DNA from: Oscillospiraceae bacterium
GTDB lineage: Bacteria > Bacillota > Clostridia > Oscillospirales > Oscillospiraceae
Direction of reading: 5' to 3'
NCBI GenBank assembly: GCA_017538965.1
Contig: JAFYHU010000055.1
Coordinates: forward strand, 1 to 38,366
DNA: 38,366 nucleotides
Every line of letters begins with the position of its first letter. Position 1 is the first letter of the stretch. The notes under the pieces were generated by a model that saw only the letters and a program-made list of their open reading frames with translations, did not search any database and had not been told where the DNA came from. Made by a program: the position numbers and the translations under genes. Positions 21,901 to 38,119 of this stretch are shown here, one piece after another.

Positions 21901-24900
21901 TGCCGGACGTTATCAGCTTTCCTGCAACGGAAAGGCGCTTAATCTGACAAACGGAAAAGCGGCGGACGGTTTTGGCGCTGCAAACCAGAACGCAAATACA
22001 GATACCGAGTGGATGAATCTGGTAGGAGAGTCGGAAAACCAAGACATGGCCTTTACCGTTTACACGGCTCAAAAAGCAGATATCTCAGCTTCAGCTTCTA
22101 TAGTGAATGGGGATAAGCCGGTTACCAGCGGAGACACTGTCATTATCTATACGCGTATATGGAATTATGATACCCTGGAATATGACTATTATGTTGTTGA
22201 TTATGACGGAAAGCTCTTCCGGGCCTATGAGAGCGGCGATGTAATTCAGTGGGTTGGTGAAGAAGAGAAAGGAAAACCTATTAAAGCTGAATGGACGTTC
22301 ACAGAATGCACTGAAGGGGAAGGTTCCAGCACCGGCTTTTTTGCATTGGAGAACTTTAATAACGAGTATCTGATGCCGAAGCTCTCAGACAGCGAAATTC
22401 TGAGAACGAAGACTTCGGACACAGACCTGATGGGGATTGAACTGCCGGGGCGTATCAACAACGAACACTACACCAAGGTTGTGTCAAAAGACGATAACTA
22501 CAATCAGTATGCCGGACTGAAAGCGGAGAACGGGAAAATTGTTTCCGTTCCCATGACAAAGTCGGATGATTTCTATTTTGCAATCATCCAAAAGCCGGAA
22601 ACGGAATTCCATTATGTAACAACAGTTGATAATAATGTTCACGGAATCCAGATGTTTATGCAAGATTATCCCTATCAGGGGAAGCATGATGATTATGGAT
22701 ACAGATCAGATACGCAGAGTGCTGTTCTGAATCGACCTGGTATTGATAAGGTAGATAGCAACAATCGTGGAATAGTTAAACCTTATTTGGAGTCTAACGG
22801 CTATCCGGATACGCATGTAAATGGGCATAATCTGATCGAACTTTACAGTGAAGAATATCCGGTCAATCATCTGTTCATAGAGAGCACTCATAACGAGAGC
22901 GGCTACTTTGAGTATGACAGTACGCAGAACTTCGCATCTCTGACATCTGAGATGGGAAGCAATGGTACAGACTTTGTTGTTATTAATGAGCTGGGTACCA
23001 ACGACAGCAACAATAATTGGGATACCAGAAAGCATGGAATGTTCATGCCCTATAATTATCTTAACTCTCAGCTCGTTTCTAAGTTGACGAACGATACGGA
23101 TACACTTGGAAATCCACTTTCCGATCTTGATCCGCGAAAACATGAGCAATTATATAAAATTCCTGCCGTTTATCCGCCGGCAGGCGGAGGAGATCCCAAA
23201 CCGGGCGATGCTGACTATTTCTTCGGGATGGAGATGAGGGCCAGTTTTATGCAGACAGCAAACGGTCTGGATAACTGGGGACACGACATTATCTTCGAGT
23301 TTTCCGGGGACGATGACTTCTGGCTGTATGTGGACGGGTATCTGGTTCTTGACCTCGGTGGTGTGCATTCTGCTTCTGCCGGCACCGTTAATTTCCGCAC
23401 AGGAGATGTTTATTATACAATCCGTGATCCTAAAGGAAATGTGATAATCAATAATGAACATACCACGTTGAGGGAATTGTTTAAAACGGCTTATAAGGCG
23501 CAATATCCAGAGGAAGCGGATTCTAATGTTGAGGAGTGGTTAAACGGTATCTTTAAAGACGGCGGTACTGTCTTTAATGACTATTCCTCGCATGAAATGA
23601 AGATGTTCTACATGGAGCGTGGTGCGAGTTCGTCCAATCTGCATATGCGCTTCAATCTGGCGCCGGTTGAACCGGGACAGATCAAGCTGACAAAGACGGT
23701 ATCCGGAACGGATAAACAGGATTATCTGGGTGCTCGTTTTGCCTATCAGATTGAATATGAAACGGATAATGGATGGACTAAGCTCTCGAATCCTGATCTG
23801 GTTACCATTTCCGGCTCGAATAAGGATGATTTCTACAAACCCAGTTTAGAAATAGGGGATGTTGAATATGATAATGTCTTCCTGCTCAGCCCGGGACAGA
23901 CAGCGGTAATCAGAATACCCGGAGGTGACGATACCAAGTATCGCATCAAGGAATGCGGAATACAGACAACGATTTACGATGAAGTAAAAGCAAACAATGT
24001 ACCGGTTGAAGGAGTGGCCTCCGGAGGCCTTGCTGGTTATGAAGATTTTCCGATCTCGGAAGCTACGGTGAGAGACAGAAAGCAGGTCGTATATGATAAC
24101 CATGTAGAAGAAGGCAGCTTGCGCAATCTTCAGATTACCAAAAAGCTCTATGACGTTGAAGAAAATGAAATAAGTAATAGTGATCAAACATTCTCTTTCC
24201 AGGTCCGGTTTGGAGAAGAAGATATCCTTTATCTTGCTGACGGATATTATTATGTATTGAATTCGGAAAACTATTATTGCACTTTCAATTCGGATACAGT
24301 TTCATTTGAATCTACGAACGAGAAGTCTTTTGATCAATTGGTTAAGAAAGGGTTGGAGGAATCGGCAAGATTCAGAGTTTCTCCGACTACCGGAAAGATC
24401 GAAAATATCCCCGTTGGATATACTGTAGAAATTCGAAATCTTATTCCGGGAACATACTTCCATGTAGAAGAATGTGATGTGCCTGCAGGATACAAGCTGT
24501 TGGGATATGAAATGCTCTCTGATGGGGGTAATGCTACTTATGTCCTCCAGATAGACAAAACTGATAAATACAATTTCGGGATAATCAGAGAAATTGAAAC
24601 AACTGCACATGTCTTAGTTAAAAACCAGATGGGTTGGGGACTGACGATCAACAAGATCTGGTCGGACAAGGATTCCATGGAATCCCATGATACGATTTAT
24701 TTCGCGGTATATGTGGATGGCGAAATCGTAGAAGATACTCTTAGGAAGATGACGACCAACGAATCTTCCCTTTACTATTACTTTGATAATTTGGCAGAAG
24801 GAGCAGAATTCAGCGATTATAAGGTTTATGAGGTTCAAATTGACGGAGAGCCAGAGACAAATGACGAGGGATACGTTACAAACTGGAGGTCACTCAACAT

Positions 24901-26278
24901 AACACCTGTCGATGGTCAGAACGTTCAGACTATAATTGTAGGTGGAACTCCCAAAGGCGGTGCCCATGAAGAAGGATTCACGTATACTGCTTCCTATACC
25001 ACAGGAACCCCAACCGGAACCCATCAGAATACCCGCGTCGATACGGTAAAAAACACCAGACCCGGTATTAAGCTGATTAAAACTGATATGAGCGGTGCTG
25101 CAGTTGGCGGTGCGGAGTTCGAATTGGAATTCCCCGATGGAGAAACAACAAAGACATATACATCTGATGCCAATGAAGGAGGATTGATTACTACCATCTA
25201 TCAGCCCGGTGAATACATATTGACCGAGACAAAAACTCCGAAAGGATGGCAGACTCTGACGAATTCACTGAAAATCACGGTTTCTGTAACAGATACTTAT
25301 CATGTTGAAGTTACTGAAGTCGGCCAGGATAATCAGGCATTCGATCAGACAGATTATATTAGCCAGGATGGTAACACGATTACGGTTGCTATCAAGAATC
25401 GCCCGTATACACTGAAAGCAATCAAGTATGATGCTTCTTCAAAGAATGATCAGCCGACGCCGATGGCAGGAATTCAATTTGCTCTCTACAAAGGAACGGT
25501 AAGCGATTCAACTCTCAAAGCCGAAGGGTTTACCGATAATAATGGAGTGATACCCGGGATTACCGAAGCTCTGGAACCAGGCACATACATTCTGGTTGAA
25601 AAAGCTGTTCCTGAAAGATATGAACAACTGCCCCCCCTGAAATTTACAATCCGTGATACCGGGGAAATCCAGCTGGAAGGGAATAACGGAGAATACTGGG
25701 AACTGACTTTTGAGGATGATGAAAACACCCAAAGAAGAGACATGGTCCTGAAAGTCTACAACCACATCATCAAGCAAAAAATCCGCATTATAAAGATGGA
25801 TGAAATCAGCATTCTCAATGAGGAACAGAAGGTGTACGTTGGCGGTGCCGGGTTTACACTTGGTATTAACGATCAGGTATTGCTTGAAGATTTGATTTCT
25901 CAGGCGTCTAACGGAGTAGTCAGGGTCAATGACGGGAGCACAGATGATTCCGGAGATCATGTGTTCACGATTCCCATAGGGAAATACAGCCTGAATGAGA
26001 CTGTTGTCCCTGCCGGATACATTCCGCTGAGCGGGCCTGTCACCATTCAGGTTGACAAAGATGGCGTTTCCTATCAGCAACCGGACGTTTTTGGCGGGGT
26101 ACCACAGACAGCTCGTATAGAGAAAGATGCTTACACAGTGTACGTATATAACTCTGCGGGCTACGAACTCCCGGCTTCAGGCGGGAGCGGGACGGCGCTG
26201 TATACGGCGCTGGGCGGCCTGATGACCGCGACGGCCGGTGCGGCCCTGGTCCTCTGCAGAAAGAAGAAAGAAGCCTGA
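18920..26278 (+). CDS. Giant cell-wall-anchored surface protein: His/Cys repeats, CHAP-like, fibro-slime/PA14-like and SpaA/Cna_B domains
   Basis: A 2452-residue exported, sortase-anchored protein. Order: membrane signal (about 19-38, VSA before Q); six HxHxxxCY repeats (about 65-190); a CHAP-type amidase fold (about 225-395) where the catalytic Cys position is Ser286 (YGDWSAMF) while His349 is kept; linker domains ending in SxYAIV; then a long ligand-like region. A fibro-slime/PA14-like segment lies around 1450-1490 (EFSGDDDFWLYVDGYLVLDL). SpaA/Cna_B-like prealbumin repeats run from about 1575 to 2400 (EYILTETKTPKGW; TYILVEKAVPERY; KYSLNETVVPAGY). The end is a sorting signal, LPASGG (from 2417), a hydrophobic segment and RKKKEA. 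The interior from about 21,100 to 26,100 is much more AT-rich than both ends, suggesting a mosaic gene. It probably acts as an adhesin or stalk; the ligand is unknown. Confidence 0.9.
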   Translation: MRESTVRKMVKEHTDHASWLWLFLLLAAFVIALAFAMVHKTVSAQTYTKRVFACPYAEEGAERVAHTHNDDCYENGVLICTLPELEAHTHTDACYTEEKVLICDLEESDGHVHTEDCYILERGDLTCENTDPEHEHTDECYEWIPALNCGMDEGDGAHHHSDECYEIRRELSCGKEELSEHVHTVDCFEVVDMSSEDIEEMRISELPESDPYADVETADEWESRFANIRLTGHWDADLLTIAETQIGYTESARNFEATLNEDDNGYTQRGWTRYGAWYGIPYGDWSAMFVSFCLNYADIPVSAVPQDGDAASLANRFSDCGLYASASDYIPKPGDLIFLDRTGDGMIDHVGIVYAVDADNGLITAIEGDRTDSVAYFDYNLSDYDIMGYGILPENPDAPEETVQPEENPTPSEDEAEAAAREALEKSMPAVSFTERAGAMRVTVEADVGAFPAGTTMKVVPITDEGLADTLAPAIIGEIVEVQAVDITFYDADGNEIEPLIPIRVMMRPFDETEADNVDVVHVDNEGNVTTVELPEDLEQPDQGVAFDADAFSMYAIVYSVKRTVISSSGQAYDITVTYDESAGVPEGAELVVEEILPDAGAAEDGSDYDSYVEMTREALGLESGEFAYARFFDIKIVDPAGEKVSINAPVAVKIELADKETDEASAENTMVVHFPDEGDTPDIVQNVNVSVTESAEDVTALSFKTSGFSIYAIVEPSDLQNNSPKDISELDGKSFYLSVNDCYFSNEINNIGSNNNYTLIKATDSQNTVQYTFEAVPDFQNQFAISCLIEGMKKYVKMEKYDNDYGTFSFDDDPTAFTVALYSSASHANDYFVISYSEENTTLYWNLRADNGENSGFQGYSQLGTGCQIKLSYPEDTQTDPLHLDNQTFGIIYYKTGMTGVALGSTAYDASNINAQELLVRPDVSDHDGVLFEYEKGVIAQWTFHYVSPNQYYISTLADGTENYLAIYDNAVTLVNDPDRATQITVTPGSDTHAGRYQLSCNGKALNLTNGKAADGFGAANQNANTDTEWMNLVGESENQDMAFTVYTAQKADISASASIVNGDKPVTSGDTVIIYTRIWNYDTLEYDYYVVDYDGKLFRAYESGDVIQWVGEEEKGKPIKAEWTFTECTEGEGSSTGFFALENFNNEYLMPKLSDSEILRTKTSDTDLMGIELPGRINNEHYTKVVSKDDNYNQYAGLKAENGKIVSVPMTKSDDFYFAIIQKPETEFHYVTTVDNNVHGIQMFMQDYPYQGKHDDYGYRSDTQSAVLNRPGIDKVDSNNRGIVKPYLESNGYPDTHVNGHNLIELYSEEYPVNHLFIESTHNESGYFEYDSTQNFASLTSEMGSNGTDFVVINELGTNDSNNNWDTRKHGMFMPYNYLNSQLVSKLTNDTDTLGNPLSDLDPRKHEQLYKIPAVYPPAGGGDPKPGDADYFFGMEMRASFMQTANGLDNWGHDIIFEFSGDDDFWLYVDGYLVLDLGGVHSASAGTVNFRTGDVYYTIRDPKGNVIINNEHTTLRELFKTAYKAQYPEEADSNVEEWLNGIFKDGGTVFNDYSSHEMKMFYMERGASSSNLHMRFNLAPVEPGQIKLTKTVSGTDKQDYLGARFAYQIEYETDNGWTKLSNPDLVTISGSNKDDFYKPSLEIGDVEYDNVFLLSPGQTAVIRIPGGDDTKYRIKECGIQTTIYDEVKANNVPVEGVASGGLAGYEDFPISEATVRDRKQVVYDNHVEEGSLRNLQITKKLYDVEENEISNSDQTFSFQVRFGEEDILYLADGYYYVLNSENYYCTFNSDTVSFESTNEKSFDQLVKKGLEESARFRVSPTTGKIENIPVGYTVEIRNLIPGTYFHVEECDVPAGYKLLGYEMLSDGGNATYVLQIDKTDKYNFGIIREIETTAHVLVKNQMGWGLTINKIWSDKDSMESHDTIYFAVYVDGEIVEDTLRKMTTNESSLYYYFDNLAEGAEFSDYKVYEVQIDGEPETNDEGYVTNWRSLNITPVDGQNVQTIIVGGTPKGGAHEEGFTYTASYTTGTPTGTHQNTRVDTVKNTRPGIKLIKTDMSGAAVGGAEFELEFPDGETTKTYTSDANEGGLITTIYQPGEYILTETKTPKGWQTLTNSLKITVSVTDTYHVEVTEVGQDNQAFDQTDYISQDGNTITVAIKNRPYTLKAIKYDASSKNDQPTPMAGIQFALYKGTVSDSTLKAEGFTDNNGVIPGITEALEPGTYILVEKAVPERYEQLPPLKFTIRDTGEIQLEGNNGEYWELTFEDDENTQRRDMVLKVYNHIIKQKIRIIKMDEISILNEEQKVYVGGAGFTLGINDQVLLEDLISQASNGVVRVNDGSTDDSGDHVFTIPIGKYSLNETVVPAGYIPLSGPVTIQVDKDGVSYQQPDVFGGVPQTARIEKDAYTVYVYNSAGYELPASGGSGTALYTALGGLMTATAGAALVLCRKKKEA

Positions 26279-27955: not shown

Positions 27956-29173
27956 ATGAAAGAAGACAATGATCTCTTATTGGTTCAGACAATGTGGAGC
28001 ATTACCGATGCTCTTCACAGTGCTGCGACTTCTGCAGACGGCCTTACCGCATGCCTGATGTATCTGTGCGATCAGCTGCCCTGCGAGCAGGGCACCGTCT
28101 GGCTTCGGGATGAAGCGAACGGCATTCTCTGTGCGATCGGGGAACGGGGCTCGTCCGGCCTCGCCGGTCTGTGCCTGGGAGAGCAGGAAGGTGCGGCCGG
28201 ACAGGCGATCCGCACGGGAGAAATGCTGTATCTGGAACCGGGAGCAGACCGAAGCGTGCTCTCCCCGAATGAACAGGAGGCAGGGCTGCCGGAAGGAGCG
28301 CTTCTGTGGGTGCCGCTGCGTACCCGGCGCGGCAGCTTCGGCTGCCTCCAGCTGGGCACTTCCGAAAGGCCTTTTTCACCGGATGAGCTGAAGCTGTGCA
28401 GGCGCTGCGCCGCGATTATCGCCCTGGACCTGGAGGACAAGGGCGTCGATGCGCTGCCGGGCATGGCGAAGAAAACGATTATGTCTCTGCGGAATGTTTC
28501 CAAAGATTATTCCAACGGCGGGAAAACCGTCCGTGTTCTCAACGGTGTCAGTCTGGATATCTACGAAAACGAATTCCTGGTGATTCTGGGCGAGAGCGGC
28601 TGCGGGAAATCCACCCTGCTGAACATCATCGGCTGCATGATCGCCCCTACTGAAGGAACCATTCTCGTGGACGGAAAAGACTTTTCCAAGCCCACGGAAG
28701 AAGAGATGACGGAGTTTCGGCGCAGTGCCATCGGCTTTGTCTTTCAGGCCTACAACCTGATGCCGACGCTGACGGCGCTGGAGAATATCCGTTTCATTTC
28801 CGAGACCAGCGACAGGCCGATGAATGAGGAAGAGGCGCTGGCCATGGTCGGCCTGAGCGAACGCGGAGATCATTTTCCCTCGATGCTCAGCGGCGGCCAG
28901 CAGCAGCGTATCGCGATCGCCCGTGCCCTTGCCAAATCCCCCCGCATGATTCTGGCAGACGAACCGACGGCCGCGCTGGACGCCGATACCGGCCGGGAAG
29001 TGCTGATGGTTCTGCAGAACGCAGTGAAGGAACAGGGGACGACTCTGATTATGGTTACCCACAATGCGGAAATCGCACGGATCGCGAACCGGGTCATTCA
29101 TGTCAGAAACGGAAAAATCGCAGAGGTGCGTATCAATCCGGTCCCTCTCCCGGCCTCTGAACTCTCGTGGTAG
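27956..29173 (+). CDS. GAF-domain fused MacB/LolD-type ABC transporter ATPase
   Basis: A 405-residue fusion. Residues about 10-165 look like a GAF sensor domain (CEQGTVWLRDEANGILCAIG; LYLEPGADRS; ALLWVPLRTRRGSFGCLQLG). Residues about 175-395 are a complete MacB/LolD/FtsE-type ATPase: Walker A GESGCGKST, Q-loop GFVFQAYNLMPTLTALEN, signature LSGGQQQRIAIARALA, Walker B MILADEPTAALD and switch MVTHNAEIA. It powers the FtsX-type permease that starts 14 bases later. The GAF domain suggests that transport or complex activity is gated by a small cytosolic ligand; this is inference. The ATG at 27956 follows GAGCAGGAC, a weak site. Confidence 0.88.
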   Translation: MKEDNDLLLVQTMWSITDALHSAATSADGLTACLMYLCDQLPCEQGTVWLRDEANGILCAIGERGSSGLAGLCLGEQEGAAGQAIRTGEMLYLEPGADRSVLSPNEQEAGLPEGALLWVPLRTRRGSFGCLQLGTSERPFSPDELKLCRRCAAIIALDLEDKGVDALPGMAKKTIMSLRNVSKDYSNGGKTVRVLNGVSLDIYENEFLVILGESGCGKSTLLNIIGCMIAPTEGTILVDGKDFSKPTEEEMTEFRRSAIGFVFQAYNLMPTLTALENIRFISETSDRPMNEEEALAMVGLSERGDHFPSMLSGGQQQRIAIARALAKSPRMILADEPTAALDADTGREVLMVLQNAVKEQGTTLIMVTHNAEIARIANRVIHVRNGKIAEVRINPVPLPASELSW

Positions 29174-29187
29174 GATAAACGCTCATC

Positions 29188-32100
29188 ATGATCGGTGCCG
29201 AATTCAAAAGAAAAGCTCTGATTACGGAAGCCCGGCGCAGCGTACAGCGCAACAGGTCTGCCTTTCTGTCCCTGTGCGTGATTATTCTGCTCGGGCTTGC
29301 GGGCTTTTTTGCTGCGCAGTATGCGGAAAAGAGCATGAAGACGGCCGGCACGGAATTCTTTGAGACAAACAGATTCAAGGACTTTGATCTCTACAGCTCC
29401 CTGGGCGTCGAGGAAGAGGATGTGGCGCAGATCCGGTCCGTTCCCGGGGTGACCGCCGCGGAAGGACGGTTTTCTTCCGATGCGGTCTATTCCTTTGCCT
29501 CGACGGAACAGGCGGTGACGGCGCTCTCGCTGACGGAACAGGTCAGCACGCCCATGCTGACGGAAGGCCGCCTTCCGACAGAAGCCTGGGAGTGCCTCGT
29601 GGATCCGGATCTGCTGGAAGACAGCGGAGCCGCCATCGGCGATGAAATCCGGCTTCGCATCACCGGGCCGGGGCTCAGCGAAACCATGGACGAGGCGTAT
29701 TCTGAGATGCAGGAAGAGATCGATGAGGCCGAGAAAACCGTTTCCGACGCGGACGCTCAGCTTGCGGATGCCATGACACAGTTCTCAGAGGCGGAGAGTC
29801 TCATTAAGGACGGGGAAGAGGAGATTGCCGACGCGGAAAAGCGTCTTGCCGACGCCGAGGCTGCAATCCTGGACGCGAATGAGCGTCTGGAAGAGGCGGG
29901 CGGCGAAGAAGCGATCGAGGCTGCCGCTCAGGAACTGGCGGAAGCGGAGAAGGCGCTGAAAATCTTCGCTGACAGTCTGGACAGCGGCCTGCTTGCGCTG
30001 CTGGACGGAGAGGAAAAAATCCGCGCCGTGATCGGGCTGTCGGAGGAGTACGGCATTCCGCTGGTGGATGATTCCGCTTCCTTTGAGAAGCAGGTGGATC
30101 AGCTGCAAAGTAAGCTGGAGAGAGCAGAGCAGCTGAGCAATCGCATAAAACGGGACGGGCTTCCGATCCCGCCCGGACCGGAACGGGACGCGATCGAACA
30201 GGAAATCGAGAAGTTTGCACCGGGCAAGACGCCGGAGGAACTTCTGGATGAACTGGATGATATCATCCCCGTGCTGCAGGCAGCGCTGGATGAGTATGAG
30301 CGCGGGAGAATCGACTATTATTATATGGGTGAACAGTATCTGGATGCCGTCACCCTTTATGAGCGTTACAGCAGACGCCTTTCGGATGCCATAGAAAAGC
30401 TCAATGAACTGAAAGAAGCCGAGCAGATGCTCGAGGACGGGAAAGCCGAGCTCGAGGCCGCCAAAAAGGAACTGGAGGAGAAGCGGGCGGAACTGGAAGA
30501 TAATCGCCTGGTGCTTGAGGAAAAACAGCAGGAGCTGGAAGAAGCAAAACAGGAGCTGGCGGATGCCAAAAGGGATCTGGACTTCCTGAAGATAAGCGTG
30601 GGAGAACTGCACAGCGGAACCTATACCGTCACCGGAACGGCCTATCACCCCGATTGGCTGCGAAGAGATTCCACCTACACGGTCGTCGTCCTCCCTGAGG
30701 CCTTTGGCAGCGGGGAAGAGTCTCCCCGGTATCACAGCGTCAGCGTTCTGACAGACGCCGGGTCGGAGGAAGACCTGTTCACCGATACTTATTTTACCGC
30801 CGTCGAGGGCGTGAAGGAAGCGCTGGAGCAGACGACGGAAACGCTTCGGGAGGATTGGCGGAGCCGGTTTCAGGAGCGCTTTCCGGACGAAGAGATGCCG
30901 GAAGAACTGCAGGAGAACTGGATTGTCCTGGATCGCCGTTCGAACGCCGGATACACGGAATACCGGTCGACCATCGGCGCCGTCAGCGGAGCGGGGCTGA
31001 GCTTCGGCCTTCTGTTTCTTTTCGTCACGGGGATGGAATGCTTCTCAACCGTCTCACTTCTGGTAGAGGAGCAGAAAAAGCTGGTGGGGACGGAAAAGGC
31101 CTTCGGATTCCGCCACGCCGAAATTCGTTTCCGCTATACCCGCTTCGGCGTTCTGGCCGCCCTGATCGGCGCGGTTTTGGGCTTTGCGCTGGCCTGCGGG
31201 ATGGGGAAGCTGCTGCTGATCCTTTTGGATCAGACGGGACTGTACGTTTTTTCCGCAAACAAGCTGTACCTGCGGCCCGGGCTCACGCTGGCGGTATGCG
31301 TCTCAGTGATGGTATTCTGTGCGCTGGTGGCCGTCCTTGCCTGCGGCGAGCTTCTGCGCAGCAGCGCCGACGATCTGATGAAGGGCGCGTCTTCCGGGAG
31401 CAGTCGATTCCTGAAGCCCGCCAGGAGCAGGCCGAAGAACCTGTACAGCAGCCTGATTCTGCGCAACATGCTGCAGGAAAAAGGGCGCGTGATCATGACG
31501 GTGATCGTGACTGCGGTCAGCTGCATGCTGATCGGCGCCGGCATCACGGTAAAGCTTGCCTACGACGGGATGAACATCCGTCAGCTGCGGGATGTCTGCC
31601 TGTATGACATCCGTGTCGATCTGGGCGCGGGAACGGAAGAATCGGTCAGAAGACAGCTGGAAACGGAGATGAACACCCTGGGTGTCAGCTGGGTTCCGGC
31701 CTGCTATGAGTCGTGTCTCTTTGAAAACGGCGACCGTCTGGACGGCACGCTGCTGCTGTGCGCCGAGGCCGAGCGCCTGGGCGAGATTATCGGCCTGACC
31801 GACCCCGTGTCCGAGATGCCGCTGGTCCCGGATGACGAAGGCGTTCTGATTCAGCTGCGCATGGCGGAAAACCTGGACCTCAGCCCGGGAGACAGCCTGA
31901 CGGTTCTGGATACCCGGTTTAAAAGGGTGACGACCCCCGTATCCGGCGCTTTCCAGAATTACCAGCAGAGAATGATTGCTCTGACGCCGGCAAGGTATGC
32001 CGCGCTCTTCGGCGTGGAGAGCGCGCCGAACAGTTATTTCATCTCGTTCAACGGCATCGATGATCAGACATTCCGGGATGCCCTGACGGCGATTTCGCCG

Positions 32101-32559
32101 GAGCTCAGCTTTGAGCGGGCGGATTCCTTCTTTGAACAATACCGCGCCATAGCCTTCATGTATAACGCGGTGGTGCTGGGCGTCACGGTGATTGCCATTC
32201 TGATTTCCTTTGTCATCCTCATCAATCTCGCGGCAATTTTCATCTCCCGGAAGAAGCGGGAACTGATCATCATGCGGATCAACGGATTCTCTCTCCGCAA
32301 AACGCGGGCTTACCTGATCCGCGAGATCGCGGCGACCACGGTGATCGGCATGGTTCTGGGCGTTCTGTGCGGCATCCCCGGAGCCAATCTGGTGGTCCGC
32401 TTCATGGAGACGCCGGATATCATGTTCGTACGGGATGTTCAGCCTGTTGCGTGGCTCATCGCCGTGGCATTGGAGGCATCCTTTGCCTGCATCATCTATG
32501 GCAGAGCCCTGCGGGAAGTCAAATATTGGTCCGTCGAAGACCTTGCGGGCACCCTGTAA
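29188..32559 (+). CDS. FtsX/MacB-like ABC permease with long extracellular coiled coil
   Basis: A 1123-residue permease. One N-terminal membrane helix (about 25-45) is followed by a MacB-like extracytoplasmic region. This is interrupted by long Glu/Ala/Leu-rich coiled coils at about 165-260 and 403-470 (ELEEKRAELEDNRLVLEEKQ and similar). Three helices of the first FtsX domain lie at about 600-720, then a helix at about 770. A second periplasmic-type domain follows, and the C-terminal FtsX domain has helices at about 985-1015, 1050-1070 and 1088-1110. MacB-fold permeases couple ATP hydrolysis to mechanical work outside the membrane rather than classical transport. The coiled coils could span or contact the cell wall. 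It is in an operon with the GAF-ATPase (14-base gap) and GT2 gene (27-base gap). Confidence 0.88.
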   Translation: MIGAEFKRKALITEARRSVQRNRSAFLSLCVIILLGLAGFFAAQYAEKSMKTAGTEFFETNRFKDFDLYSSLGVEEEDVAQIRSVPGVTAAEGRFSSDAVYSFASTEQAVTALSLTEQVSTPMLTEGRLPTEAWECLVDPDLLEDSGAAIGDEIRLRITGPGLSETMDEAYSEMQEEIDEAEKTVSDADAQLADAMTQFSEAESLIKDGEEEIADAEKRLADAEAAILDANERLEEAGGEEAIEAAAQELAEAEKALKIFADSLDSGLLALLDGEEKIRAVIGLSEEYGIPLVDDSASFEKQVDQLQSKLERAEQLSNRIKRDGLPIPPGPERDAIEQEIEKFAPGKTPEELLDELDDIIPVLQAALDEYERGRIDYYYMGEQYLDAVTLYERYSRRLSDAIEKLNELKEAEQMLEDGKAELEAAKKELEEKRAELEDNRLVLEEKQQELEEAKQELADAKRDLDFLKISVGELHSGTYTVTGTAYHPDWLRRDSTYTVVVLPEAFGSGEESPRYHSVSVLTDAGSEEDLFTDTYFTAVEGVKEALEQTTETLREDWRSRFQERFPDEEMPEELQENWIVLDRRSNAGYTEYRSTIGAVSGAGLSFGLLFLFVTGMECFSTVSLLVEEQKKLVGTEKAFGFRHAEIRFRYTRFGVLAALIGAVLGFALACGMGKLLLILLDQTGLYVFSANKLYLRPGLTLAVCVSVMVFCALVAVLACGELLRSSADDLMKGASSGSSRFLKPARSRPKNLYSSLILRNMLQEKGRVIMTVIVTAVSCMLIGAGITVKLAYDGMNIRQLRDVCLYDIRVDLGAGTEESVRRQLETEMNTLGVSWVPACYESCLFENGDRLDGTLLLCAEAERLGEIIGLTDPVSEMPLVPDDEGVLIQLRMAENLDLSPGDSLTVLDTRFKRVTTPVSGAFQNYQQRMIALTPARYAALFGVESAPNSYFISFNGIDDQTFRDALTAISPELSFERADSFFEQYRAIAFMYNAVVLGVTVIAILISFVILINLAAIFISRKKRELIIMRINGFSLRKTRAYLIREIAATTVIGMVLGVLCGIPGANLVVRFMETPDIMFVRDVQPVAWLIAVALEASFACIIYGRALREVKYWSVEDLAGTL

Positions 32560-33859: not shown

Positions 33860-33947
33860 CGGAACAGTTTTCTGTCTTGCCTGAGGCAGGGGACAGGCAG
33901 CCGTTCCGCCTGATGGACGGTGAACAGGACAAAAGAACCCTTTGTCT
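33860..33947 (+). ncRNA. Possible structured RNA or structured 3' end
   Basis: After the small peptide the sequence folds repeatedly. CGGAAC (33860-33865) pairs with GTTCCG (33903-33908), enclosing CTGTC/GACAG and TGCC/GGCA. Then GACAAA and TTTGTC form a second hairpin (33929-33947). A third stem with a long T-run follows at 33972-34010. No promoter is obvious directly upstream, so it may be a 3' untranslated region rather than a separate RNA. Confidence 0.35.
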
Positions 33948-33958
33948 GATAAAAAGAA

Positions 33959-34004
33959 TCAATAATCACGTGGGAATGTGGCATTCTGTCACATTCCCTT
34001 GTTT
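33959..34004 (+). promoter_or_regulatory. Regulon promoter copy 1: TCAATAA box, GTGGCA palindrome and -35
   Basis: TCAATAA (33959-33965), 12 bases, GTGGCA-TTC-TGTCAC (33978-33992), six bases (ATTCCC), then TTGTTT (33999-34004) as the -35 position. TACAAT (34020-34025) or an overlapping CAATAT is the likely -10. The elements and spacings equal those upstream of the SH3-like peptide at 36327-36372. It would drive the truncated signal-peptide gene at 34083. Confidence 0.6.
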
Positions 34005-34010
34005 TTTTTA
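33972..34010 (+). terminator. Intrinsic terminator overlapping regulon promoter copy 1
   Basis: GGGAATGTG (33972-33980) pairs perfectly with CACATTCCC (33990-33998) over a 9-base loop, followed by TTG and eight T. As RNA this is a good terminator for transcripts coming from the left. The same bases carry the GTGGCA palindrome. Confidence 0.65.
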
Positions 34011-34081
34011 CCGGGATAGTACAATATCTTGTATCAGACGGCTTGAAAAAGTCACAATAAACCATAAATGGAGGAAAACAG

Positions 34082-34150
34082 TATGAAAAAAACCCTTGCG
34101 ATTGTGCTTGTGCTGGCCGTGCCAGAATCAGCGCAGCTGTTTTTTTCATA
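34082..34150. repeat. Inverted repeat joining two gene starts
   Basis: TATGAAAAAAAC (34082-34093) and GTTTTTTTCATA (34139-34150) are perfect 12-base inverted copies, each containing a start codon. At the centre, CTGGC-CGT-GCCAG (34113-34125) forms a tight palindrome where the two signal-peptide sequences meet. This marks the junction. Confidence 0.75.
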
Positions 34151-34193
34151 TGTCAATCTGTCCTTTCCTGTTCGGAATATCTTGTATGACTGA
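34083..34193 (+). pseudogene. Truncated secreted-protein gene, signal peptide only (plus strand)
   Basis: The ATG at 34083 has a strong GGAGG site and begins MKKTLAIVLVLA, a clear signal-peptide start. After about 12 residues the frame changes character (VPESAQLFFSYVNLSFPVRN) and stops at 34191. The continuation is the reverse complement of another gene start, so the mature protein is missing. It sits behind regulon promoter copy 1, so the lost gene was probably controlled together with the SH3-like peptide. Confidence 0.55.
34113..34149 (-). pseudogene. Truncated secreted-protein gene, signal peptide only (minus strand)
   Basis: Reading left from 34149, AAAGGA lies about 11 bases before an ATG that begins MKKTAALILA, again a signal-peptide start. 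The frame then runs antisense through the plus-strand gene start and intergenic sequence to 33841 without any recognisable protein. A promoter for this direction is at 34223-34252. Only the 5' end of a gene appears to remain. Confidence 0.45.
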
Positions 34194-34222
34194 CCGCCTG
34201 AAGCAGGTCCGCCCTACTACAT

Positions 34223-34252
34223 GTATAATGTGCGCGGAGCCCTCTTCGTCAA
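34223..34252 (-). promoter_or_regulatory. Promoter of the minus-strand signal-peptide remnant
   Basis: On the minus strand, TTGACG (34247-34252), an 18-base spacer and TTATAC (34223-34228). Overlapping alternatives for the -10 exist. Confidence 0.45.
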
Positions 34253-34288
34253 GTGAAAGAAGCCCGGAAAAAGCGCTGACGGCAGAGT

Positions 34289-34303
34289 GTGGCAAATTGC
34301 CAC
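34289..34303. promoter_or_regulatory. GTGGCA-N3-TGCCAC palindrome, copy 2
   Basis: GTGGCA-AAT-TGCCAC is a perfect 6+6 inverted repeat. It is upstream of the XRE-receiver regulator gene (its -35 begins 22 bases later) and also upstream of the minus-strand remnant. It lacks the TCAATAA box present at copies 1 and 3, so it may serve autoregulation. Confidence 0.6.
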
Positions 34304-34325
34304 CCCCTTTGCCGCCAGTTTCTGC

Positions 34326-34355
34326 TTGCTATGGACGCGTGATTCGCGGTATGAT
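34326..34355 (+). promoter_or_regulatory. Promoter of the regulator-kinase operon
   Basis: TTGCTA (34326-34331), an 18-base spacer and TATGAT (34350-34355), about 30 bases before the regulator start. Palindrome copy 2 lies just upstream. Confidence 0.55.
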
Positions 34356-34391
34356 AGAAAAGGAAATGTATCATAGGAGGAGTATTGCCTT

Positions 34392-34994
34392 ATGATATCG
34401 AACTTTGCCGAAACGCTGCGCAAGCTCAGAACAGACAGAAAGATGTCTCAGCAGTTTCTTGCCAATCAGATCCATGTCAACCGCACAACCGTTTCCAAAT
34501 GGGAGTCGGGAACCCGGATTCCGGACGCCGCAATGATCTATCGGCTTTCCAAGTGTTTCGGCGTGGATGTCGATGACCTCTTTGAGGCTGCTGCCCTGAA
34601 CGAGGATTCGCCCGTCGTTATCCTCGTTGACGATGACACGATCATCCTGAAGGGCAGCATTCAGGTTATGGATGAGGTTATGCCGGATGCCTCGATCGTC
34701 GGTTTTACGAATCCGAAAGAAGCGCTTGACTTTGCCGGAAATAACAGAGTTGCGCTGGCCCTTCTGGATATCGAGATGGGGCGGGTTAGCGGTCTGGACC
34801 TGTGCCGCAGTCTGCTCGAGATAAACGCCATGACCAATGTCGTCTTTCTGACCAGCTACCGGGAGTATTCCTTTGATGCCTGGGAGACCGGCGCCTGCGC
34901 CTTCGTTCTGAAACCGCTGACGCACGAGGCGGTCAGAAAGCTGCTTTCTCAGCTGCGGCATCCGTTTCCGACAGGCACAGTGACGGAGGCCTGA
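34392..34994 (+). CDS. Response regulator with N-terminal XRE helix-turn-helix and C-terminal receiver
   Basis: A 200-residue protein with an inverted domain order. Residues about 5-62 are an XRE/Cro-type helix-turn-helix (LRKLRTDRKMSQQFLANQIH and VNRTTVSKWESG). Residues about 73-190 are a receiver domain: acidic pocket LVDDDT (Asp80-82), phosphoacceptor Asp126 in ALLDIEMGRVSG, Thr/Ser switch region VFLTSYREYS and conserved Lys174 in FVLKPL. Most response regulators carry the receiver first and a winged-helix, LuxR or LytTR output. It should bind a palindrome as a dimer when phosphorylated by the kinase that starts 5 bases later. AGGAGG precedes the ATG at 34392. The three GTGGCA palindromes nearby are its most likely sites (inference). 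Confidence 0.9.
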   Translation: MISNFAETLRKLRTDRKMSQQFLANQIHVNRTTVSKWESGTRIPDAAMIYRLSKCFGVDVDDLFEAAALNEDSPVVILVDDDTIILKGSIQVMDEVMPDASIVGFTNPKEALDFAGNNRVALALLDIEMGRVSGLDLCRSLLEINAMTNVVFLTSYREYSFDAWETGACAFVLKPLTHEAVRKLLSQLRHPFPTGTVTEA

Positions 34995-34999
34995 CAGGC

Positions 35000-36274
35000 A
35001 TGGACAGCTGGATTACCGTCACGAATCTTTCCCTGGATACGGCCGCTCTGATGCTGATGATCATCGGGATCCTGTCCATCATGATCAACCGCAGCATGGA
35101 CAGCTGGTCGCGCCGCTTCTTCGGCGTCCTGTTTATCGTTCTGTTTTTCTACGTTTTCTTTAACTGGTGTTCCGTGATCTGGCGCATGCTGGGCGAGCCC
35201 GCCTGGCTTCCGCCGCCGAAGCCCGCCCTCTTCTGGGAGTCCCTGCTGTCCGGCATGCTGATCCCGCTTCTGGTGGTATATCTGCTCCGCTGCACCGGCG
35301 AGGACATCCGCAAAAGCGGCCTCTTTGCGCTGATCCTCGGCCTTTTCGCGGTCTATGCCGTGCTGCTGATCGTCACCCAGTTTACAACCTTTATCTATTA
35401 TTACAGCCTGGACGGAGAGTATCACCGCGGACCCTGGTACCCGCTGCTGCTGGTGCCGCCGATCCTGAGCATGCTGGCGCTTTTCGCTGCCGTTCTCCGT
35501 CGGCGGGAAAGACTGTCGCGCAGGCAGTTTACTTCTTTTCTGGTCTATTCCCTGATGCCGCTGATCGGAATGCTGATCCAGATTGCCTTCTACGGCCTGT
35601 ATACAATCGTGCTCTTTACCGCGGCTGCCGCCATGGTTATGTATGTGTCGATGCTCACGGATCAGGTCGAGAGCTATGTCCGCCAGCAGGAAGTGCTCGC
35701 CACCCAGCGGGCCAACATTCTGGTCCTGCAGATGCGGCCGCATTTCATCTATAACACGCTGACGGGCATCTATCATCTCTGCGGGTCAGATCCCGCTGCC
35801 GCCCAGAGGGTGATCAATGATTTTTCCAATTATCTGCAGCATAACTTTACGGCCATTGCCAAGAAGGAGACGATACCGTTCAGGGAAGAACTCGAGCATA
35901 CGCGGGCCTATCTTGCCGTCGAGCAGGCACGCCATGAGGGAATGCTGCATGTGACCATGGATACGCCGTTCATAAACTTCCGCCTGCCGCCCCTGACGCT
36001 GGAGCCTGTCGTCGAAAATGCCGTGAAGCACGCTTTCGACCCGTCAGCGGGAACGCTGGAAATTGTGCTCCGTACCCGCGAGACCGGGAAGGGGGCCGAG
36101 ATTACCGTCGAGGACAACGGACCGGGCTACAGCCCTGCCGACGACAACGAGCCGCATATCGGCCTTGAGAATATTCGGGAGCGCCTCAGCATGATGTGCG
36201 GGGGAAACCTGACGATCGAAATGCGCGATACCGGCGGTACAAAGGTCACCATCTCGATTCCGGGAAAGAAATAA
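35000..36274 (+). CDS. Polytopic sensor histidine kinase, YesM/LytS type
   Basis: A 424-residue kinase. The N-terminal half has about six to seven membrane helices (roughly 13-30, 41-61, 82-97, 107-128, 148-165, 178-200, 202-220) and no large extracellular domain. This suits sensing of a membrane-soluble or short peptide signal. The His_kinase domain follows: LQMRPHFIYNTLTGIYHLC with phosphoacceptor His248, then the HATPase with LEPVVENAVKHAF (N box), VEDNGPGYSP and IGLENIRERLSMMCGG. This layout resembles AgrC/LytS-class kinases. It lies 5 bases after the XRE-receiver gene and shares its transcript. Confidence 0.92.
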   Translation: MDSWITVTNLSLDTAALMLMIIGILSIMINRSMDSWSRRFFGVLFIVLFFYVFFNWCSVIWRMLGEPAWLPPPKPALFWESLLSGMLIPLLVVYLLRCTGEDIRKSGLFALILGLFAVYAVLLIVTQFTTFIYYYSLDGEYHRGPWYPLLLVPPILSMLALFAAVLRRRERLSRRQFTSFLVYSLMPLIGMLIQIAFYGLYTIVLFTAAAAMVMYVSMLTDQVESYVRQQEVLATQRANILVLQMRPHFIYNTLTGIYHLCGSDPAAAQRVINDFSNYLQHNFTAIAKKETIPFREELEHTRAYLAVEQARHEGMLHVTMDTPFINFRLPPLTLEPVVENAVKHAFDPSAGTLEIVLRTRETGKGAEITVEDNGPGYSPADDNEPHIGLENIRERLSMMCGGNLTIEMRDTGGTKVTISIPGKK

Positions 36275-36326
36275 GCAGACAGGGACGTTGAGGACAGAGG
36301 AAAAGAGATTTCCCCGGTGAAAACAG

Positions 36327-36395
36327 TCAATAAACCCTGTAAACAGTGGCAATGTGCCACATATCCTTGTCAGTAAGCGAAAAATAGGTTATAGT
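36327..36395 (+). promoter_or_regulatory. Regulon promoter copy 3 of the SH3-like peptide
   Basis: TCAATAA (36327-36333), 12 bases, GTGGCA-ATG-TGCCAC (36346-36360), six bases (ATATCC), the -35 TTGTCA (36367-36372), a 17-base spacer and the -10 TATAGT (36390-36395). The palindrome is centred about 49 bases before the expected transcript start, a position typical of activator sites. Elements and spacings match copy 1. Confidence 0.7.
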
Positions 36396-36401
36396 ATGAC
36401 C

Positions 36402-36520
36402 GGAAAGCACAAAATATGGAGGATCGGAATCTTTCAGAACTCAATATGCTGATGATCCGAATCTGAAATTCCTGTGCTTGTGTGATACTTCTGTGACGGA
36501 TGCTGTGCTACTATGAGCAC
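36402..36520 (+). promoter_or_regulatory. Structured 5' leader of the SH3-like peptide mRNA
   Basis: The leader is about 170 bases long. AAGCACA (36405-36411) pairs with TGTGCTT (36473-36479), enclosing GGATC (36421-36425) paired with GATCC (36454-36458). A second hairpin is GTGCT/AGCAC (36505-36520). A short frame starting at ATG 36446 (six codons) lies inside. It may control translation or stability. Confidence 0.4.
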
Positions 36521-36575
36521 GCGAAAGCAAAAAAGGCAAACAATAAAAAGCTATTTGAAAAAGGAGAAAACGAAA

Positions 36576-36839
36576 ATGGCAGACAAAAATCTGATGAACG
36601 ATCAGGAACTCGAGAGCGTAACCGGCGGTGAATGGCGTGTTGTCAACACCGGTGATTACAGAGATGCCGCGATCCGGAGCTATGCCGGTCTGAACGCCCC
36701 GGTTATTGCAACGCTTCCCAACGGAACACAGGCGAATGCGACGAACAATTTCCAGCAGGCCGACGGCCGCAACTGGGTGTATATCACCGCTCCGGTGCAG
36801 GGCTGGATCAAGGGCGCCATCCTCGGCTACGCGTACTGA
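36576..36839 (+). CDS. Double-glycine-leader exported peptide with SH3-like domain
   Basis: An 87-residue protein. Residues 1-18, MADKNLMNDQELESVTGG, form a classical bacteriocin-type double-glycine leader, the substrate of C39-peptidase ABC exporters. The mature part (about 69 residues) reads as a bacterial SH3 (SH3b) fold: NTGDYRDAAIRSYAGLNAPV, IATLPNGTQANAT and GRNWVYITAPVQGWIKGAIL. SH3b domains usually bind peptidoglycan and occur within larger enzymes; a free-standing one exported through a bacteriocin route is unusual. AAGGAG precedes the ATG. An earlier in-frame ATG at 36513 lacks a site and would bury the leader. It sits behind regulon promoter copy 3 and next to the two-component pair. 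No C39 exporter is in the window. Confidence 0.8.
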   Translation: MADKNLMNDQELESVTGGEWRVVNTGDYRDAAIRSYAGLNAPVIATLPNGTQANATNNFQQADGRNWVYITAPVQGWIKGAILGYAY

Positions 36840-36884
36840 GTCGTAAAACAGAAGAGAATCCGGTTTTCTTCCGGCTTTTGTCAT

Positions 36885-36931
36885 GGGGAACTCCCGGCAT
36901 ATTCGAGACAGAATATGCCGGGAGTTTTCCC
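36885..36931 (+). terminator. Terminator after the SH3-like peptide
   Basis: AACTCCCGGCATATTC (36889-36904) pairs perfectly over 16 bases with GAATATGCCGGGAGTT (36911-36926), and GGGAA/TTCCC extends the stem. The T-tail is short (TTTT within 36924-36928). Confidence 0.75.
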
Positions 36932-37022: not shown

Positions 37023-37049
37023 AGACTTGAAAGAAGGGGAGTGGTCGCG

Positions 37050-37919
37050 ATGGACGAGAAGAAAATGGCCGAGAACATTCTGAAGCCTCTTGACGATACC
37101 GTGAACCGCAACTCCAAAGACAGTGTCTTCTGCGATCTGTTTGAGCAGCCGGAATATCTCCTTCAGATGTACGCCGCGCTTCACCCCGAGGATGATGTTA
37201 CCAGCGTTACCGATATTACGCTTGTCACGCTGGACCATAAGCTGCTGCAGGCACAGTATAATGACCTGGGTTTCATTGTCGGGAACCGTCTGATGATCCT
37301 TGCTGAGGCACAAAGCACCTGGACGGTGAATATCCTGATCCGCTTCCTGATGTACCTCGGCGAAACCTATCAGCGCTACATCCGCAACAATGACATCAGT
37401 GTGTATTCAACCAGGAAGGCGCAGATCCCAACGCCGGAGCTTTATGTGATCTATCCGGGCGAACGCGGGAACAAGCCGGATGAGATCAGTCTGGCAAGAG
37501 ATGTATTTGGGATTGATCCCGAAAATGCCTTTGTAAATGTCAAAGCTAAAATCATCTATGACAGCAAGCAGGGAGATATCATCAACCAGTACATTGTTTT
37601 CTGCCGCGTGTTTGACGAACAGATCAAACTGTATGGCAGAACGAAAAAGGCCGTTGACGAAACGATTCGGATTTGCAAGAACAGGGATGTGTTAAAGGAC
37701 TATCTTGCCAAGGAGGAGGTAACAGATATCATGTTTGGATATTTTGATTATGAAAAAGAACTGGAATTCCTTCGCCGGGAAGAACGCGAAGAAGGCCGTG
37801 AAGAAGGCCGTGAAGAAGGCCGTGAAGAAGGCAAAAATGAGCGCTCTCGGGAAATCTATGAACGCTTGATAGCTTCTAAAATGCCCCCCGAGCAGGCGCG
37901 TGCGATTGCGTTCGGATAA
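37050..37919 (+). CDS. Rpn/PD-(D/E)XK nuclease family protein (transposase-like)
   Basis: A 289-residue protein of the Rpn/PDDEXK_2 family (recombination-promoting nucleases, often misnamed transposases). The core has NSKDSVFCDLFEQPEYLLQM, TLVTLDHKLLQAQYNDLGFI, GNRLMILAEAQSTWTVNILI (E-x-Q nuclease motif) and RFLMYLGETYQRYI. After MFGYFDYEKELEFLRREERE comes a Glu/Gly/Arg tract coded by 12-base tandem repeats, then a short helical tail (IASKMPPEQARAIAFG). Family members cut DNA, and some act in phage defence, with variable C-termini. The ATG at 37050 follows AAGGGGAG; the in-frame GTG at 37041 overlaps it. A duplicated alternative tail lies directly downstream. Confidence 0.88.
   Translation: MDEKKMAENILKPLDDTVNRNSKDSVFCDLFEQPEYLLQMYAALHPEDDVTSVTDITLVTLDHKLLQAQYNDLGFIVGNRLMILAEAQSTWTVNILIRFLMYLGETYQRYIRNNDISVYSTRKAQIPTPELYVIYPGERGNKPDEISLARDVFGIDPENAFVNVKAKIIYDSKQGDIINQYIVFCRVFDEQIKLYGRTKKAVDETIRICKNRDVLKDYLAKEEVTDIMFGYFDYEKELEFLRREEREEGREEGREEGREEGKNERSREIYERLIASKMPPEQARAIAFG
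37788..37832 (+). repeat. 12-base tandem repeat inside the Rpn-type gene
   Basis: The unit GAAGAAGGCCGT occurs three times plus a partial fourth, coding EEGR repeats. Because the unit is a multiple of three, slippage would change length without breaking the frame. Confidence 0.85.
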
Positions 37920-37936
37920 TAAAGCTTATGTTTTGA

Positions 37937-38119
37937 CTCTTCGATTATGAATATGAACTGGAATTCCTTCGCCAGGAAGAACGCGCAGAAGGCGCCTTTG
38001 GTATGCTTGTCAATCTGGTCAGAAAAGGCCGCATGACTCCTGCAGAAGCTGCGGAAGAGGCCAACATGACCGTTGCCGAGTTCGAGAAGCAGGCTGCTCT
38101 GCTTCCCGTTCAGGCTTGA
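37937..38119 (+). pseudogene. Orphan C-terminal tail of a second Rpn-type gene
   Basis: Directly after an in-frame TGA (37934-37936) the frame encodes LFDYEYELEFLRQEERAEG, nearly the same as FDYEKELEFLRREEREEG in the intact gene, with near-identical DNA in that stretch. It then continues with a different end, GMLVNLVRKGRMTPAEAAEE and MTVAEFEKQAALLPVQA, stopping at 38119. It has no N-terminal nuclease core and no good start. It is either a decayed paralogue or a silent alternative tail. Confidence 0.7.

Follow-up and report, generated by a model that had tools for sequence, protein, structure and literature searches.

Palindromic candidate operators around an XRE-receiver two-component system of an Oscillospiraceae bacterium

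Closest described systems

Histidine kinases of the PF06580 family pair with LytTR or AraC-type response regulators, of which the LytTR regulators use direct repeats. Here we describe a two-component system of different make-up, encoded by an Oscillospiraceae bacterium in a stretch of 38,366 nucleotides (contig JAFYHU010000055.1 of assembly GCA_017538965.1; this whole stretch is called the window below), together with three copies of the palindrome GTGGCA-N3-TGYCAC placed around its genes. Our comparative analysis leads us to propose that the palindromes are very probably operators of the XRE-receiver response regulator encoded at 34392, through which it would activate a small regulon that probably includes its own gene.

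As in LytS/LytTR and YesM/YesN-type systems, a multi-transmembrane PF06580 kinase adjoins the regulator gene; its hydrophobic segments fit about 6-7 transmembrane helices. In contrast to those systems, the output domain is an N-terminal Cro/C1-type XRE domain followed by a C-terminal receiver and, in contrast to the LytTR regulators, the candidate operator is an inverted repeat. Pfam recognizes both parts of the regulator, with HTH_3 (PF01381; 53.2 bits, cut-off 23) at the N-terminus and a receiver (PF00072) at the C-terminus; D80, D81, D126, T154, and K174 are invariant across 19 aligned sequences, and a structure model places the recognition helix at residues 31-39. No LytTR domain was matched at E ≤ 0.01 in the Pfam scan. 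The best 25 of 67 NCBIfam matches were all under their cut-offs (best receiver match, BtsR), and the best 50 of 1644 Foldseek matches were receiver domains or receiver-containing proteins of different architecture, with the receivers of XynC and AraT among the best matches listed. A search of the open-access literature, which leaves most subscription journals outside and is therefore weak evidence, listed no title or abstract opening on an XRE-output response regulator; an excerpt of PMC11139204 concerns SinR, RstA, and Agr. XRE-output response regulators seem to be little described.

In the 434 phage repressor, Gln28 and Gln33 contact bases. The regulator resembles repressors of the 434/lambda type in having a putative dyad operator. 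An excerpt of PMC3317979 describes a model of the 933W repressor in which S41 and K46, at helix positions 1 and 6, contact bases, and these are the positions that covary with the site in our system (see below). The regulator differs from 434/lambda-type repressors in its fusion to a phospho-acceptor receiver and in the location of its candidate sites upstream of the -35 element, which is consistent with activation. A phage origin of the system was considered and dropped: megablast of 33900-36900 against phages gave no match, and the regulator had 19 PHROG matches, which span mainly its HTH or its receiver and in no case the whole protein.

Finally, bacteriocin regulators of the AgrA/ComE/PlnC type also belong to two-component pairs located by a double-glycine peptide gene, and the promoter of that gene has the operator just 5' of its -35 element. 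The present system differs from them in that the regulator has no LytTR domain and the peptide carries an SH3-like domain. Among the selected window genes scanned, no peptide transporter or autoinducer was identified; the two ABC transporter genes (27956-32559) have ABC_tran, GAF, and FtsX matches and no peptidase domain.

Palindromes, promoter spacing, and helix covariation

A pattern search located the palindrome at the three window positions given by the initial annotation (Table 1). Re-reading of the sequence also agreed with its observation that TCAATAA stands 12 bases 5' of copies 1 and 3 and that AT-N2-CC-TTGT directly follows both copies on the 3' side. Copies 1 and 3 thus share the layout TCAATAA-N12-palindrome-N6-TTG, and they are the only 2 exact sites of the composite GTGGCANNNYGYCAC-N6-TTG in their own genome (G000; 3,393,808 bases in 91 contigs, 93.9% complete). 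Exact palindromes number three genome-wide, all of them at this locus within a span of 2.4 kb. Allowing one mismatch on both strands of this genome gave 22 matches, vs. 15 for the reversed pattern, and allowing two mismatches in the window gave 9 matches against an expectation of 3.97, a count equalled or exceeded in 3 of 100 shuffles. It is hardly credible that the copies are chance repeats or hairpin-forming elements similar to repetitive extragenic palindromes. Copies 1 and 2 do form strong hairpins (0/200 shuffles as stable for each), but the folding of copy 3 is unremarkable (22/200), the assembled genome holds no further exact copy, and relatives keep the promoter spacing while showing changes of site dialect.

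Within the genus, at least 30 of 102 genomes have homologues of the regulator (E ≤ 1e-30; the window's own genome included), and in the family, order, and phylum samples at least 16/300, 5/295, and 2/398 genomes do, respectively. These counts are lower bounds, as only some first-look candidates were scored per genome (at most 10 in the family, order, and phylum samples). Some of the assemblies compared are incomplete. A scan of named genomes yielded six full-length relatives in metagenome-assembled genomes (MAGs) labelled Oscillospiraceae, Lachnospiraceae, Ruminococcus, and Coriobacteriaceae. The fetched loci contained 76 distinct homologues, of which 56 share 45% identity or more with the query. 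The 20 below this threshold were excluded from the statistics, and some of them show other palindromes, e.g., GGCAC-N5-GTGCC. A kinase relative adjoins the regulator gene in 53 of the 56 closer loci and in none of the 20 others.

A related 15-mer (N6-N3-N6, often with a CA-N3-TG core) was recognized upstream of 45 of the 56 closer homologues, a count made at p ≤ 0.03 with a scoring matrix seeded from the same upstream regions and to that extent circular. Relative to the start of the regulator, 44 of these sites lie between -84 and -125 and the remaining one at -199. In a non-circular check, a matrix built from 19 genus sites was applied to 24 other homologues and found a site (p ≤ 0.01) in 16 of them, or in 11 of 18 after removal of the six named MAGs, which may or may not belong to the window's genus.

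Around the 45 homologue sites we scanned for promoters (TTG, 15-19 bp, -10). A divergent promoter has its -35 element at a distance of exactly 6 bp in 21 cases and of 5 bp in one more; the background for 5-6 bp is 0.2% at random positions and 0.6% in upstream regions (sites included). On the other side, a promoter directed toward the regulator gene lies 18-25 bp from the site in 36 of 45 cases (0.8% at random positions), with the -35 element at 20 bp in 22 sites and at 21 bp in 7 (29/45 together). In the window, copies 1 and 3 show the 6-bp target geometry and copy 2 the regulator geometry at 22 bp; a divergent promoter of the 6-bp type was searched for at copy 2 and none was found. This conserved spacing supports the suggestion of the initial annotation that the regulator may control its own gene through copy 2.

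The same regulator could instead bind these sites and repress, or repress when unphosphorylated and activate when phosphorylated, which we consider rather unlikely. XRE domains are commonly repressors, and a dimer located 6 bp 5' of the -35 element could hinder the polymerase within a larger complex. However, the site centers at about -49 and -63/-66 lie upstream of the -35 element and off the core promoter, and such narrow spacing (21/45 at 6 bp; 29/45 at 20-21 bp) suits activation better than occlusion.

Covariation and spacing statistics were based on the 45 homologues with a site (35 after removal of duplicates), leaving out the 11 siteless ones. Distances between sites correlated with distances between recognition helices (Mantel r 0.52, p 0.0002; 35 non-redundant pairs), also when the distance of the receiver and the remaining HTH was taken into account (partial Mantel r = 0.39, p = 0.0002; 35 pairs). 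Among 880 residue-base pairs, covering the whole protein, the top two were 31/bp 1 (z 10.0) and 36/bp 4 (z 9.8), whose residues stand at positions 1 and 6 of the modelled recognition helix. R31 goes with G1 and C15 in 25/25 pairs, as compared with 1/10 for other residues (Fisher 1.4e-7). At bp 4 of the two half-sites, the bases are G/G or A/G with Lys36 (3/3), C/C or A/C with Arg36 (22/22), and T/T or A/T with Asn/Ser/Gly36 (10/10). This covariation supports a dyad operator whose bases would be contacted from helix positions 1 and 6. Many protein families bind palindromes of such a length, and the copies might belong to another DNA-binding protein, standing near the system by position only. 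This is very improbable, given that the site accompanies the XRE-receiver gene across different gene orders and that its bases covary with the recognition helix of that very protein.

Candidate targets and proposed mechanism

The double-glycine SH3 peptide gene 3' of copy 3 was found at 17 places in 15 of the 102 genus genomes. The composite stands before three of these genes (window, G375, and G385), exactly those located beside a K36-type regulator. For the other 14, of which one is partial and another has just 38% identity, the contig has no XRE-receiver match (E ≤ 1e-30) and no related site occurs within 400 bp. In G375, which is another species, the promoter before the peptide gene reads TCAATAA-N12-GTGGCATTCTGTCAC-N6-TTGATT-N16-TATCAT, with peptide, regulator, and kinase genes on one strand; in G385, the peptide gene preceded by the composite is divergent from the regulator gene.

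A second promoter-like element of the window's SH3 gene was seen at 36481-36514, where the direct repeat TGTGATACTTCTGTGACG lies 5' of TACTAT. A similar repeat ending in TGTGAC or TGTGAT precedes 11 of the 14 parsable relatives of this gene (3/17 were unparsable), which suggests a different regulator, perhaps of the OmpR type. In addition, a double-glycine gene with a LysM-like part (by eye) following the leader, on contig C20 of the same genome (L153:1088-1420), has a similar TGTGAC direct repeat on its 5' side.

When one mismatch was tolerated, the composite had 11 matches in five genomes, two of which are one palindrome read on both strands. The four exact sites all lie near an XRE-receiver gene on the same contig, and exact copies scattered away from the regulator, the outcome that would have spoken against the initial annotation, were not seen in these genomes. 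Of the 7 further matches, some are on other contigs, and one of these (G189:C3) is unlike this promoter type. In the window's own genome, the extra composites precede a 390-aa membrane GGDEF protein (C20:8598) and a probably exported 573-aa protein with no Pfam match (C20:44223). Of the other matches, one in G375 precedes a relative of the GGDEF protein (47% identical), one in G385 a 621-aa membrane protein, with TGG replacing TTG, and one in G189 a probably exported protein adjoining the regulator. Relatives of the GGDEF protein in G056 (50% identical) and G378 (47%) are divergent neighbors of XRE-receiver genes and have R-dialect sites, while the membrane GGDEF genes of G000 and G375 have near-K-dialect sites. 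The same predicted GGDEF target is therefore found wired to different site dialects in different species. Composites before the same targets in other species, together with the upstream footprints and the helix covariation, strongly support the earlier proposal that the palindromes are recognized by this regulator. A site noted at C20:8607 turned out to be composite on the minus strand. Two candidates were set aside: C78:18200 as a site, which lies within an open reading frame (ORF), and L037:7673 as a target, which reads as a piece of a longer hairpin. Outside the genus, a SpoIIE-domain protein gene (L131:2354-3868) is a divergent neighbor of an XRE-receiver gene with target geometry.

From the sites, their geometry, the footprints, the covariation, and the shared targets, all obtained by sequence comparison, we infer DNA binding, control by phosphorylation, and the sign of regulation as follows. 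The membrane kinase would phosphorylate D126 in response to some signal, and the phosphorylated dimer would use the recognition helix of its XRE domain to bind the 15-bp palindrome, with R31 reading the outer G and K36 reading bp 4. Bound at copy 3 (SH3 peptide) and copy 1, with the site center at about -49, it would activate promoters whose -35 element starts 6 bp downstream. Copy 2, 22 bp from the -35 element of the regulator's own promoter and centered at about -66, would serve autoregulation. The predicted regulon comprises the double-glycine SH3 peptide, the membrane GGDEF protein (C20:8598), and perhaps the probably exported 573-aa protein (C20:44223).

It should be noted that several observations weigh against this reading. 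A recognized upstream site is missing in 11 of the 56 close homologues, as scored with the matrix derived from these upstream regions. Of the six homologues of the K36 type, those of the window, G385, and G189 have the upstream site, and those of G375, G249, and G052 lack a recognized one. G375 has its composite 5' of the peptide gene instead; no upstream site was seen in either G249 or G052, and G249 has no composite genome-wide. The reversed composite gave 33 matches in this same G249, which has no true match, as compared with 1 in G000 and 0 in G375, G385, and G189. One half-site at C20:44223 has a T at bp 4, which suits S/N/G-type helices better than K. No codirectional regulator promoter lies 5-6 bp from a site (0/45), and autoregulation therefore rests on the 20-22 bp class. 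Residue 41 also covaries with bp 3 (z 8.7), as do receiver residues (z up to 6.6), and shared ancestry therefore contributes to the covariation. Lastly, the receiver-domain tree offers one independent pair per trait on supported branches and 2-5 on all branches, which is far too few for a test, although none of these pairs runs opposite to the code.

The operator reading of copy 1 has weak points: the copy is also a terminator-like hairpin, the promoter that follows has a spacer of 15 bp, and a product for it is doubtful. The promoter 3' of it was absent from the output of a stricter promoter scan. The initial annotation had stated that copies 1 and 3 precede genes for different exported products; copy 1 in fact precedes only a 36-aa ORF with a signal-like start, for which tblastn against the fetched loci gave chance-level matches only (best E 0.2). 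Copy 1 may be merely the intrinsic terminator of an upstream transcript, a possibility that we regard as doubtful but worth weighing. It sits in a hairpin with a 12-bp stem (GGGAATGTGGCA/TGTCACATTCCC) and a T-rich tail, scores as a terminator, and has a folding z-score of -4.4 (0/200 shuffles equally stable). Against this, the corresponding site in G375 lacks the long stem but retains TCAATAA-N12, an identical 15-mer, and the distance of 6 bp to TTG. The terminator and operator roles of copy 1 may coexist. The terminator scan of the window gave 3 terminator-like sites against a shuffle mean of 3.7, and BLASTN with the intergenic region 33860-34391 gave, among the matches listed, 13 of 14 that overlap copy 1 (7 distinct places).

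Table 1. Features of the XRE-receiver locus in the window.
Feature	Position	Strand	Basis or remark
TCAATAA element, 12 bases 5' of copy 1	33959..33965	+	Element and spacing recur at 36327 and in G375
Palindrome copy 1, GTGGCATTCTGTCAC, target-type geometry	33978..33992	+	Inside hairpin 33972-33998, followed by T's
Putative promoter 3' of copy 1, TTGTTT-N15-TACAAT, short spacer	33999..34025	+	-35 at 6 bp from palindrome
36-aa ORF, GGAGG ribosome site, signal-like start (by eye); uncertain product of copy 1	34083..34193	+	
Palindrome copy 2, GTGGCAAATTGCCAC, regulator-type geometry	34289..34303	+	Pattern, footprint, spacing
Putative regulator promoter, TTGCTA-N18-TATGAT	34326..34355	+	22 bp 3' of copy 2
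XRE (HTH_3)-receiver response regulator, 200 aa	34392..34994	+	Pfam domains; structure model
Histidine kinase, 424 aa, PF06580 His_kinase with HFIYNTL, HATPase_c	35000..36274	+	Pfam, sequence
TCAATAA element, 12 bases 5' of copy 3	36327..36333	+	Sequence
Palindrome copy 3, GTGGCAATGTGCCAC, target-type geometry	36346..36360	+	Sequence, composite search
Putative promoter P1 3' of copy 3, TTGTCA-N17-TATAGT	36367..36395	+	-35 at 6 bp from palindrome
Double-glycine leader SH3-like peptide, 87 aa	36576..36839	+	SH3_3 22.2 bits, below Pfam cut-off 27

A second site dialect and further window features

The window's own genome also contains a paralogue of the regulator and an R-dialect pattern, TGACANNNTGGAA-N7-TTG, which has 18 matches with up to one mismatch (five exact), vs. 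4 for the reversed control. Eight of the 18 matches have a family-like center, and downstream genes were read for these eight: seven precede an ORF and one is the site upstream of the paralogue itself. The seven ORFs encode a Gly-zipper/DUF1269 protein, a 172-aa protein (DUF3829 below cut-off), a dCache-HAMP-GGDEF protein, a glycosyltransferase 8, a DUF3089 protein, a DUF308 protein, and an unnamed 257-aa protein. These matches indicate that one cell holds at least two candidate site dialects. Taken across the homologues, it is likely that phospho-controlled XRE regulators, expanded in one apparently rumen-associated lineage, diversified into insulated paralogues by joint changes of two recognition-helix residues (31 and 36) and of base pairs 1 and 4 in a shared 15-bp operator, while a promoter rule with two geometries (6 bp for targets and 20-22 bp for self) stayed fixed.

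The putative operator, the promoter rule, and the candidate residue-base code are readable from sequence, which would allow regulon prediction in uncultured gut bacteria. In addition, the question of how paralogous two-component systems are insulated at the level of DNA becomes testable by a few point changes. The predicted targets would link an XRE-receiver system to GGDEF (cyclic di-GMP) proteins and to surface or exported proteins.

Other features of the window include a Nif11-like leader peptide with a Cys-rich core (1650-1922; TIGR03798 28 bits, below the cut-off of 32.3) and a 2452-aa surface protein with a fibro-slime domain and an LPXTG-type anchor (18920-26278). A GAF-ABC ATPase fusion (27956-29173) adjoins an FtsX permease with long coiled-coil-like stretches. 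Finally, an Rpn-family nuclease/transposase-like gene (37041-38117; TIGR01784 below cut-off) contains GREEGREEG repeats, and a similar partial sequence lies downstream of it.

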